A stretch of DNA of 48,683 bases from Treponema sp. (GTDB taxonomy: Bacteria; Spirochaetota; Spirochaetia; Treponematales; Treponemataceae): NCBI GenBank assembly GCA_012838745.1, contig DUOS01000101.1, forward strand, positions 1 to 48,683, in the 5' to 3' direction. Under the pieces are notes generated by a model that had not been told where the DNA came from, ran no database searches, and was given only the letters and a program-made list of their open reading frames with translations. Positions within the stretch are counted from its first letter, which is position 1. Each line of letters starts with the position of its first letter. The position numbers and the translations under genes are program-made. Shown here piece by piece: positions 1,719 to 5,080 of this stretch.

Positions 1719-2630
1719 CTAATCTCGAACCCACGATACCGGTCGCTCGTCATTTTCCATTTTCAAAATATTTTTTCCGTCATTTTTTATAATAACTGTT
1801 TTCTTTGTTCCAGAAAGAGTTTTTTGATCCTTTGATATTAAAAACCTCCATTCTAAAGGCGGTGCCACATTGACTGCTTGTTTTGCTACCGGATCGGGAA
1901 GGTTATCAAACTGACGAGGATTGGAACTTCCTTTTTGACGAACAATGAGGTCTCCATTAGAAACAATTACTTCTAGAGAGAGCGATACACCACTTGAAAG
2001 AACAGCTACTCCGCGGCCACCTCGTAACAGCATAATCTTTTCTATGCCGTCTTCACCACGCCATGAGCCTGCTAGAGAATCTATATTAGTTACCGAAACA
2101 AGTGCCTTTTCTTCCAGAGTGGAAGTATCAGTTACAATAGGTTTTTCCTGCCTATTACGAACAAACACTGGTTCGTCTGGGTCAGGCAAACGAATTGATT
2201 GATCAAACAAGTCTCGAACAAGAATACGAGACTCAAGTAATATTCGATTAGAATTTTCATAAACACGCGAAATAAGGCGGGTTACACCGAAAGGGCCACC
2301 TTTAAGAACTAATTCTAACTTAATTCCATCAGGTTGACTGGTCATAGTTCCAAAAAATGCATAATCAGTACCATCTGGCACACCAAAATCAAGTGGAGGG
2401 GAATCGGAACGCATATCCACAATTCGATACGTTCGTAGTTCCCGAATAAAAGAATACACTAGATCATCAACAGTCATAGAAATATTGTCGTTAAGATCGT
2501 TTGAAAATAGAGAAAAAACAGCTACCGAAGGGAGAGACTGTGCATAAACAATTGAAGATAAAAAGAAAAACATGCAGAATATGACGAGGATACGTTGTAC
2601 TTGGTTCACGTCTCTCTTATTTTTATCCAT
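1719..2630 (-). CDS. Exported protein of unknown function, TolB/LpoB N-domain-like
   Basis: This 303-aa protein starts with basic residues and a hydrophobic stretch (about residues 12-30) ending VYAQS, a good signal peptidase I site, so it is probably periplasmic. The next segment, with VAVFSLFSND and a later YRIVDMR, resembles the helix-strand layout of TolB-N/LpoB-type domains, in which exported proteins form a small alpha/beta fold; this is a weak similarity by eye. The C-terminal third contains LAGSWRGEDGIEKIML, which looks like a small beta-barrel. The ATG at 2630 is chosen over upstream in-frame starts because AAGGA precedes it and it gives a clean signal peptide. It overlaps the smpB stop by 8 nt, suggesting translational coupling. 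I do not recognise a named gene. Confidence 0.65.
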   Translation of the reverse strand: MDKNKRDVNQVQRILVIFCMFFFLSSIVYAQSLPSVAVFSLFSNDLNDNISMTVDDLVYSFIRELRTYRIVDMRSDSPPLDFGVPDGTDYAFFGTMTSQPDGIKLELVLKGGPFGVTRLISRVYENSNRILLESRILVRDLFDQSIRLPDPDEPVFVRNRQEKPIVTDTSTLEEKALVSVTNIDSLAGSWRGEDGIEKIMLLRGGRGVAVLSSGVSLSLEVIVSNGDLIVRQKGSSNPRQFDNLPDPVAKQAVNVAPPLEWRFLISKDQKTLSGTKKTVIIKNDGKNILKMENDERPVSWVRD

Positions 2631-3093
2631 TGTTCCTTGTGCGGATTTCCCGCTGAAGATCCCTTTTGACATCACGATCACGGATATCCGATCGTTTGTC
2701 AAACAGTTTTTTACCTCGGCAAATACCAAGGTTTACCTTTATTATACTGTTTTTTAGATAAAAATCGAGGGGTACGAGGGTAAAGCCTTTTTCATCTACT
2801 TTTCTTGCCAAGCGTTTTATTTCATCGCGATGAAGCAATAACTTTTTAGGACGATATGGATCATGATTAAAAACAGACGAATATACATAGGGAGTAATGT
2901 GTAATCCCATAAGCCATACTTCACCATTACGAATTTCGGCAAAAGAATCAGGAAAAGACATGTTTCCAGCTCGGATAGACTTTACCTCTGTTCCTTGGAG
3001 AACAATTCCACATTCGATAGATTCTTCAATAGCATAATTAAAACGGGCCTTACGGTTTTTTGCCAATATTTTAACCGGTGTTGTATTACTCAT
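2623..3093 (-). CDS. smpB: SsrA-binding protein SmpB
   Basis: SmpB binds tmRNA and brings it to stalled ribosomes in trans-translation. The 156-aa protein has the usual length. It shows the N-terminal ILAKNRKARFNY, the central GIVLQGTEVKSIR and NMSFPDSFAEI blocks of the OB-fold, VPLDFYLKN, and the basic tail GICRGKKLFDKR followed by an Arg/Lys-rich end that folds on the ribosome. The frame continues upstream to a GTG at 3123, but family alignment and the promoter favour the ATG at 3093. That ATG lies 7 nt after a TATAAT box and has no Shine-Dalgarno, so the mRNA is predicted to be leaderless. No ssrA gene is in this window. Confidence 0.95.
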   Translation of the reverse strand: MSNTTPVKILAKNRKARFNYAIEESIECGIVLQGTEVKSIRAGNMSFPDSFAEIRNGEVWLMGLHITPYVYSSVFNHDPYRPKKLLLHRDEIKRLARKVDEKGFTLVPLDFYLKNSIIKVNLGICRGKKLFDKRSDIRDRDVKRDLQREIRTRNNG

Positions 3094-3100
3094 TACAGGA

Positions 3101-3130
3101 ATTATATGAATTAGCTTACACACTTGTCAA
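3101..3130 (-). promoter_or_regulatory. Consensus promoter, predicted leaderless start of smpB
   Basis: TTGACA (3130-3125), an 18-nt spacer and TATAAT (3106-3101) are read on the minus strand, both boxes matching the sigma-70 consensus exactly. Only TCCTGTA separates the -10 box from the smpB ATG at 3093, so transcription should begin at or one base before the start codon. The -35 box overlaps the plus-strand -35 box of the divergent gene. Confidence 0.8.
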
Positions 3131-3152: not shown

Positions 3153-3188
3153 TCTATTTCTATAATTACAACAAAAAAGAGGTTGCAC

Positions 3189-3926
3189 ATGCCCGCCAAA
3201 TGGCACAAATATTCGTACACAGCACAACGAGATGAACGGCGAACCTTTATTGCTATTATCGTCTTTTTAGTTTTTTCGCTCGTTTTGTTTACGCTCATAC
3301 ACAATTACGCAGTTACTATGTATAAACTTCAAGCCAAAACCATGGAGCCTACGCTCTATAGTGAAGAAAGAATAATTTCTTCACCACTGTATTCCGCACA
3401 TCCAGGAGAAAAAACGGGGTTTTCCTTGTTTTTTTCTTCAGAAAGAGGGGATATCGTCGTTATATCACCAATTAACACCGATAGCCAGGGAACACTCAAG
3501 ACGGCATTCCGTTCTATTGTCTCGTTTATTACCTTTCAAAAGTTCAGGCCTTTCTCGTCTGAAGATACTCCGGGAAAAAAACCGGTTATACGTCGGCTTT
3601 TAGGGTACCCTGGAGATAGTCTCTACATGGATAATTTTATACTGCATATTAAACCTGCAGACTCGTCTCATTATTTAACTGAATTTGAATTAGTATCCAA
3701 TCCCTATGAATTGCGTATTGATCCACTTCCTGATGGTTGGAACACAAACATGCCTTTTTCAAACTCTTTTGAAGAAATTACCCTTGGGACTAATGAATAT
3801 TTTGTTCTTTGTGATAATCGCTCTATGGCAAGCGACTGTCGTATTTGGGGTCCTATTACCCGAGAGCGCATAGTAGGAAAGGTTTTGTTTCGTTACTGGC
3901 CATTTAAACGGTTTGAAAAGTTTTGA
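3189..3926 (+). CDS. S26-family signal peptidase I homologue with substituted catalytic dyad
   Basis: Type I signal peptidases cleave exported preproteins with a Ser-Lys dyad. This 245-aa protein has one N-terminal membrane anchor (about residues 19-39). It then has the family boxes: box B (KTMEPTL, residues 50-56), box D (IRRLLGYPGD, with Arg at 135) and box E (CDNRSMASDCRIWGP) followed by an IVGK segment. The catalytic Ser before Met-x-Pro-Thr is Thr51 here, and the dyad Lys that normally starts KR in box D is Arg135. It may therefore be inactive or altered. AGAGG lies 6 nt before the ATG at 3189; an in-frame TTG at 3183 abuts that element and is less likely. The hemW frame follows almost directly. 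Confidence 0.8.
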   Translation: MPAKWHKYSYTAQRDERRTFIAIIVFLVFSLVLFTLIHNYAVTMYKLQAKTMEPTLYSEERIISSPLYSAHPGEKTGFSLFFSSERGDIVVISPINTDSQGTLKTAFRSIVSFITFQKFRPFSSEDTPGKKPVIRRLLGYPGDSLYMDNFILHIKPADSSHYLTEFELVSNPYELRIDPLPDGWNTNMPFSNSFEEITLGTNEYFVLCDNRSMASDCRIWGPITRERIVGKVLFRYWPFKRFEKF

Positions 3927-3937
3927 ACGAAGACGCA

Positions 3938-5080
3938 ATGCCTTCACTGTATATTCATGTTCCTGTTTGCAAAAAGAAGTGTGATTACTGTGATTTTTAT
4001 TCTATACCGCTTTCAACACTTTCCCAATCACCTGAATCCATAACTACAAGCATTACGGATTCATTAATTGAGGAAATAGAAACTCGTAGCGGTACATTGG
4101 GAGTTTCTCAATGGAATACTGTATTTATTGGGGGAGGGACCCCGAGTTTGCTTCCACCGCGGGATCTTCTTCGTTTGGGCGCAGCCTTTACTGCTAAAAG
4201 CGAAGTAACAATAGAAGCAAATCCAGAAAGTATTACTGATCTGTGGTTAGATGTCTGCGCAGAAGCCGGTATTACCCGTATTTCAGTGGGTATACAAACG
4301 TTGCACACACCTCTTTTGGATGCAGTGGGTAGGCGTGGCAGCGCTCAAGGAAACCGAGATGCCCTTGCCCGAATTTCTCGCCGCTGGAAAGGATCCTTTT
4401 CAGTGGATTTGATGTGCGGTTTACCTGGTCAAACTAAAAAGATGCTCCTTGAGGATATTGAAGAAGTAAGCAAATATCCGGTTAACCATGTATCTTTATA
4501 TTCATTAATCATTGAACCTACTACTCCGCTAGCACAACGCATAGCACACTCACCTGAGCCTCTGTTACCCCCAGATGAAGAAGTTCTATGGTTTAGCGCT
4601 CGGCAAACACTAGAAGAGCGGGGCTTTAGGCAATATGAAATATCTAACTTTGCCCAACCGGGTGGAGAGTCCGCACATAATCTAATTTACTGGCATATGG
4701 GTTCATATATAGGAGTTGGCCCTTCTGCTGTAGGCACCATTCAAAACGGCGACAAATCCATACGGTATACCAATAAAAGAGACCTTGCCGCATGGCTTAA
4801 AAACCCTATTGAGCAGCAAATAGTTGAAGAAATTTCACGAACCGACACTATTATAGAAGTATTGCTCATGGGTTTTCGACTCAGAGATGGAATTGCCCGA
4901 AAATCATTTAAGGATCGTTTTGGAAAAGATATACTGGACTATATTGGTATAACCGCTCGCAATTGGCAAAAGAAAGCCCTCTTCTTCGTTACAGAAGAAA
5001 CAGTAGGTCTTACCCGAGAAGGGTTACCTATACTGGATCGCTTTCTTTCAGATTGCCTAGAAGAAATAAATCCAGACTGA
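3938..5080 (+). CDS. hemW: HemW-like radical SAM protein (CPO-related)
   Basis: The protein is 380 aa, typical of HemW. It begins MPSLYIHVPVC and carries the radical SAM CxxxCxxC cluster site at Cys11, Cys15 and Cys18, followed by Asp-Phe as in HemW rather than the extra Cys of HemN. The GGGTPS box, the ISVGIQTL segment and the FRQYEISNFAQPG segment are family signatures, and a HemN C-terminal domain follows. HemW is regarded as a heme chaperone and not a coproporphyrinogen oxidase, so annotation as HemN would be wrong. An in-frame TTG at 3923 overlaps the upstream stop, but the ATG at 3938 matches family N-termini. It converges with the helicase gene with a 2-nt gap. Confidence 0.88.
   Translation: MPSLYIHVPVCKKKCDYCDFYSIPLSTLSQSPESITTSITDSLIEEIETRSGTLGVSQWNTVFIGGGTPSLLPPRDLLRLGAAFTAKSEVTIEANPESITDLWLDVCAEAGITRISVGIQTLHTPLLDAVGRRGSAQGNRDALARISRRWKGSFSVDLMCGLPGQTKKMLLEDIEEVSKYPVNHVSLYSLIIEPTTPLAQRIAHSPEPLLPPDEEVLWFSARQTLEERGFRQYEISNFAQPGGESAHNLIYWHMGSYIGVGPSAVGTIQNGDKSIRYTNKRDLAAWLKNPIEQQIVEEISRTDTIIEVLLMGFRLRDGIARKSFKDRFGKDILDYIGITARNWQKKALFFVTEETVGLTREGLPILDRFLSDCLEEINPD

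Follow-up and report, generated by a model that had tools for sequence, protein, structure and literature searches.

The gene at positions 3189–3926 (+ strand) of the window, by which we mean the whole 48,683-nucleotide stretch of Treponema sp. DNA that was analysed, encodes a signal peptidase (SPase) homologue that lacks the catalytic dyad, is conserved under purifying selection, has orthologues identified by gene order, and is accompanied by canonical paralogues in the same genome. The explanation that we regard as quite probable is that the gene is the second member (B copy) of an old lepB pair, and that its product, a conserved and probably membrane-anchored pseudo-signal-peptidase, has been kept for a non-cleaving role.

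The open reading frame is intact and encodes 245 amino acids, with a TTG at 3183 as an alternative start. The protein scores above the cut-offs of both Peptidase_S26 (PF10502; 75.2 bits, cut-off 22.9) and signal peptidase I (TIGR02227; 75.6 bits, cut-off 47). Its AF2 model (pLDDT 83.4, pTM 0.78) has the SPase fold, matching E. coli LepB (1t7d_A) with Z 17.1 and an rmsd of 2.2 Å over 152 aligned residues, and SipA (4n31_B) with Z 14.9 and an rmsd of 2.5 over 130. The signal peptidase I domain follows an N-terminal helix of residues 10–40 (3216–3308, +) that appears in the model, contains a hydrophobic stretch and is likely to serve as the membrane anchor. The TIGR02227 cut-off is also exceeded by six dyad-altered relatives from six other genomes. 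Automatic annotation labels such genes signal peptidase I, and counting them as active enzymes misstates the number of treponeme SPases.

Alignments by phmmer to S. aureus SpsB and other solved SPases place Thr51 (codon ACC, 3339–3341, +) at the position of the catalytic Ser of box B and Arg135 (codon CGT, 3591–3593, +) at that of the catalytic Lys of box D, so that both catalytic residues are absent from the protein. Together with the intact frame and the two profile matches, this bears out the original prediction of an SPase homologue with these two replacements. The further claim that all other family boxes are kept holds for Arg136, Asp209, Arg211, Asp216 and Arg218 but not for the residues that hold the Lys: the equivalents of Gly272 and Ser278 (E. 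coli numbering) are both missing, and Cys208 (3810–3812, +) and Ala214 (3828–3830, +) stand in their places. All 47 LepB proteins encoded in tandem with this gene outside the family, which are described below, have Gly and Ser here. In SPases Gly272 leaves room for and packs against the catalytic Lys, and Ser278 stabilises the Lys, according to an excerpt of PMC4049620. No other Ser and Lys in the alignment fits as a dyad. The nearest candidate, Lys131, was rejected as a substitute since only 28 of 80 family orthologues have a Lys there, and most of the remaining conserved polar positions either are common to LepB copies or fall outside the two catalytic boxes. Cys217 of the window protein (3837–3839) corresponds to Ser in 137 of 139 copies of the gene. 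Judged from its sequence, the protein very probably does not cleave, and cleaving activity is unlikely.

The same assembly contains two other S26 genes, both with Ser and Lys, which answers the question whether a canonical lepB exists elsewhere in the genome. One encodes 561 amino acids with the motifs PSESM and VKRVVGLPGE, the other 168 amino acids with GPSM and VIKR. With these two present, the gene at 3189–3926 is not the only S26 gene that could remove signal peptides. In the family the canonical LepB is long (560–617 residues), and its Lys and GDNR boxes are separated by a large insert, as in L002 676–2361 (G000:C157); the motifs IPSESM, VKR and GDNR are present in 11 of 11 long family copies checked. 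In the single-contig genome G020 (1.14 Mb) two S26 genes were found, one of which is a Ser/Arg form of the pseudo-signal-peptidase gene. This leaves one canonical SPase I, a drug target, in that organism.

Matches to the gene were obtained in 192 of 195 family genomes at E ≤ 0.001, although the weaker ones may be the canonical paralogue, and in 183 of 195 at E ≤ 1e-20. The family loci are a subset of these 195 genomes and consist of located matches and 60 extracted regions. L010, L029 and L088, which are broken or split, and exact duplicates were left out of the orthologue set, and L110 (split), L038 (a fragment running to an in-frame stop) and L231 (degenerate, 184 amino acids) were dropped before the dyad was counted. 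None of the 80 usable orthologues has Lys at the former Lys position, which is Arg in 73, Tyr in three, and Ser, Ala, Val and Phe in one each. Across the family the Arg is encoded by all six Arg codons, which means that the residue is maintained in the protein and is not a frozen codon. The former Ser position is looser (Ser 49, Thr 17, Ala 8, Val 3, Asp 2, Asn 1). Combined, the pairs are Ser/Arg (45), Thr/Arg (15), Ala/Arg (8), Val/Arg (3) and Thr/Tyr (2), with Asn/Arg, Asp/Arg, Asp/Tyr, Ser/Ser, Ser/Ala, Ser/Val and Ser/Phe once each. Among ten copies from the window's own genus, Arg is present in all, and the Ser position is Thr in six, Ala in two and Val in two. Thus the Arg of the proposed Thr/Arg pair is conserved and the Thr is not. 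The dyad change is common to a whole family of orthologues and for that reason goes beyond chance.

The original prediction had left a choice between a non-cleaving role and an unusual chemistry. The free conversion of the nucleophile position to Ala or Val favours the former and speaks against a Thr/Arg chemistry. An active peptidase could be imagined in which Thr or Ser acts as nucleophile with Arg as base, or in which Cys208 is a relocated nucleophile. The near-constant Arg with its six codons would agree with the first variant, and the second would agree with the presence of Cys208 in 23 of 31 family copies without Ser51 vs 16 of 49 copies with it. However, Arg is a poor general base, four of the ten genus copies have Ala or Val at the nucleophile position, and the Cys208 position itself varies (Cys 39, Ala 21, Gly 11, Ser 7, Asn 1, Thr 1 among the 80 orthologues), the 21 Ala copies in particular arguing against a nucleophile there. 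When independent pairs are compared, the link between loss of Ser51 and Cys208 falls short of significance (median p 0.25), and Cys208 was rejected as a relocated nucleophile. We consider catalysis by such a route highly improbable for the window protein. The 45 family orthologues with a Ser/Arg pair might, going by their residues, have slow activity.

The preferred reading, a protein retained for something other than cleavage, also has to be weighed against the idea that the gene is in decay and becoming a pseudogene. Damaged copies do occur. In the single-contig genomes G018 (L110, 2347–3062) and G064 (L088, 2515–3052) the orthologue is split across two frames, the G058 copy has an in-frame TAG, and in G329 a degenerate relative of 184 residues (L231, 3371–3922) lies behind a canonical LepB, aligns only partly and seems to be without the dyad region. 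The split copies and the TAG indicate that the gene can be lost or damaged, or that there are sequence errors. Against decay stand the dN/dS values, which range from 0.035 to 0.215 in the 14 close pairs with finite dS (16 pairs, of which two were saturated), the strong matches in 183 of 195 family genomes, and 12 positions that are invariant across 42 rows. The gene is under purifying selection, and that it is on its way to becoming a pseudogene is scarcely credible.

The former catalytic positions are not among the best conserved. Among the 245 positions the former Ser ranks 76th in conservation and the former Lys 72nd, behind structural and copy-specific positions. Arg136, Gly142, Asp143, Glu165, Asp209, Arg211 and Asp216 are retained in 137–139 of 139 copies. 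The segment LTEFE (residues 163–167, 3675–3689, +) is kept, position by position, in 119, 127, 137, 113 and 132 of the 139, and Trp184 (3738–3740, +) in 122, while only 8 of the 47 tandem LepB proteins have Trp there. More characteristic of this gene than of LepB are Ser9-Tyr10, where the long N-terminal helix begins, Pro54, Phe113, Gln117, parts of LTEFE, and Trp184. Such a pattern is as would be expected of a non-cleaving protein with a retained binding surface.

The gene order in the window is smpB (2623–3123, −; PF01668), the pseudo-signal-peptidase gene (+), and a HemN/HemW-like radical SAM gene (3923–5080, +; PF04055 and PF06969) that overlaps its 3′ end. In the loci as cut, 59 of 60 from the family and 50 of 60 from the outgroup have hemW immediately downstream in the same orientation, and 36 of 60 and 27 of 60, respectively, have smpB, which serves as a synteny anchor, as the divergent upstream neighbour. 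The outgroup loci represent 54 of 76 order-level genomes outside the family and six class-level genomes. On the basis of the order smpB – pseudo-signal-peptidase gene – hemW, we regard the copies as orthologous across the class. A Pfam scan of five neighbours in the window identified DivIC, Sua5/YrdC, SmpB, the radical SAM/HemN protein and one protein without a match; sortase and pilin genes were not among these five. A 336-amino-acid frame without a Pfam match (1719–2729, −) adjoins smpB in many family loci.

Outside the family, but within the same order and class, the gene immediately upstream and in the same orientation encodes a canonical LepB of about 330 residues in 47 of the 60 outgroup loci. 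In most of these tandems the second gene has a start codon between −4 and +30 bases from the LepB stop, and the tandem LepB retains the equivalents of Ser, Lys, Gly272 and Ser278 in 47 of 47. The tandem LepB is absent from the locus in the window's family and also from 13 of the 60 outgroup loci. The second gene itself is variable outside the family. In the f3 rows Thr, Ser or Ala is combined with Lys in 28 of 29 and one row is Thr/Arg; in the f2 rows Ser occurs with Lys in 9 of 15; in all nine f40 rows the Lys position is Glu, Gln, Val or Tyr; and the six class-level rows are Val/Leu, Ile/Arg, Glu/Ala, Ser/Arg, Ala/Arg and Ser/Lys. Altogether a Ser/Lys pair is kept in 21 of 139 copies, all outside the window's family, and some of these also retain the Gly272 equivalent. 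From their residues these 21 copies could be active, and because of them the gene need not be inert everywhere. Elsewhere in the phylum, in G208 and G195, a Ser/Lys copy adjoins a LepB-like frame of about 690 residues. Also elsewhere in the phylum, a separate S26 gene in G203 (L235, 1507–2226) has Thr in place of the Ser (SSTMEYT) and Ser in place of Gly272 but retains the Lys.

The simplest history is that an active second copy of a lepB–lepB2 pair lost its dyad several times. On a tree of the 139 copies, a quick tree with SH-aLRT support only that was built without the three site columns and in which the class-level rows are long branches, the former Ser position must have switched between Ser and not-Ser 23 times or more, and the former Lys position between Lys and not-Lys five times or more. 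The tree is unrooted and therefore these counts do not separate gain from loss.

A mechanism can be proposed along these lines. After descent from the second gene of the old pair and loss of the dyad, the protein would have retained the peptide-binding cleft of SPases, with Arg135 filling the site of the general base. Arg135 may lock this site by bonding a main-chain oxygen, by analogy with Arg152 of the phage 186 CI repressor. What the cleft then binds, without cleavage, could be a signal peptide, a client protein that is exported, or active LepB, and at the export site the protein would have the part of a holdase or accessory subunit. The pairing of both genes in the outgroup operon favours LepB as a partner; the pseudo-peptidase is accompanied by an active subunit in the 47 tandem loci, and by canonical genes elsewhere in the genome of the window. 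Since the tandem LepB has gone from the locus in the window's family, any LepB partner there would be the long LepB encoded elsewhere. The tandem pair of locus L174 was modelled as a fusion by AF2, with the stop read as Gly and an alignment of 32 rows, 13 of them paired; a larger alignment of 77 rows (A1) was dropped because it divided many rows that hold just LepB or just the B copy between the two halves. This model, run without a control, had a pTM of 0.49 and a linker below 50 pLDDT and gave no confident LepB interface. The fused-pair result and the absence of the tandem in the window's family do not support a LepB partnership, and direct contact of the window protein with LepB is in our view possible but less likely than not.

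Alternatively, the protein could be a free-standing, SipA-like chaperone that serves a single exported envelope protein or a small number of them, non-cleaving and with no tie to LepB. This is a version of the explanation given above that differs in the partner. The fold and the kind of dyad loss resemble those of SipA as described in an excerpt of PMC4049620, and the gene persists without a tandem LepB in the window's family and in the 13 outgroup loci. However, no conserved client gene adjoins it, the constant neighbours being smpB and hemW, and in the outgroups the pairing is with lepB. We see it as a reasonable possibility, though short of an even chance. The wider proposal is that spirochaetes run a two-subunit signal peptidase, in which an active LepB is joined by a pseudo-peptidase subunit, dedicated to this role and present across the class, whose part is to bind or present signal peptides, and in which Arg-for-Lys is the selected state in the treponeme family. 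This is speculative and probably goes too far. If this is true, spirochaetes would have a bacterial equivalent of the signal peptidases with several subunits that operate in mitochondria and the endoplasmic reticulum. Under the non-cleaving reading in general, a class-wide pseudo-peptidase with drifting catalytic residues amounts to an experiment by nature on the functions of the SPase cleft other than cutting.

Among known systems, mitochondrial Imp1/Imp2 and the eukaryotic signal peptidase complex are precedents for a hetero-oligomeric peptidase with related or accessory subunits, but Imp2 is itself catalytic, unlike the dyad-less window protein. S. aureus SpsA is a dyad-less SPase paralogue beside an active one. 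With LepB and TIGR02227 (S26A) the protein shares the profile match, the fold, the N-terminal helix and the residues Arg136, Asp209, Arg211, Asp216 and Arg218; it differs in the loss of Ser and Lys and in the changed Gly272 and Ser278 equivalents. Among the titles and abstract openings listed by searches of the open-access literature, no account of this gene or its orthologues as a pseudoenzyme was found; the single relevant mention is a table row of PMC3757035 in which BB0031 is called LepB. The phage 186 CI repressor, from the same superfamily, also has Arg at the position of the catalytic base, where Arg152 bonds a main-chain oxygen (excerpt of PMC12984324), but it is a repressor and not a membrane protein of the SPase branch. 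The other parallel is S. pyogenes SipA (PDB 4n31), an S26 fold without catalytic Ser and Lys and with its Gly272 equivalent replaced, whose non-enzymatic role in pilus assembly, as reported in an excerpt of PMC4049620, shows that an SPase fold can act without catalysis. Whereas SipA has Asp/Gly in place of the dyad and serves pilus assembly, the protein described here has Thr/Arg, is encoded beside smpB and hemW, and belongs to a lineage that spans a bacterial class.
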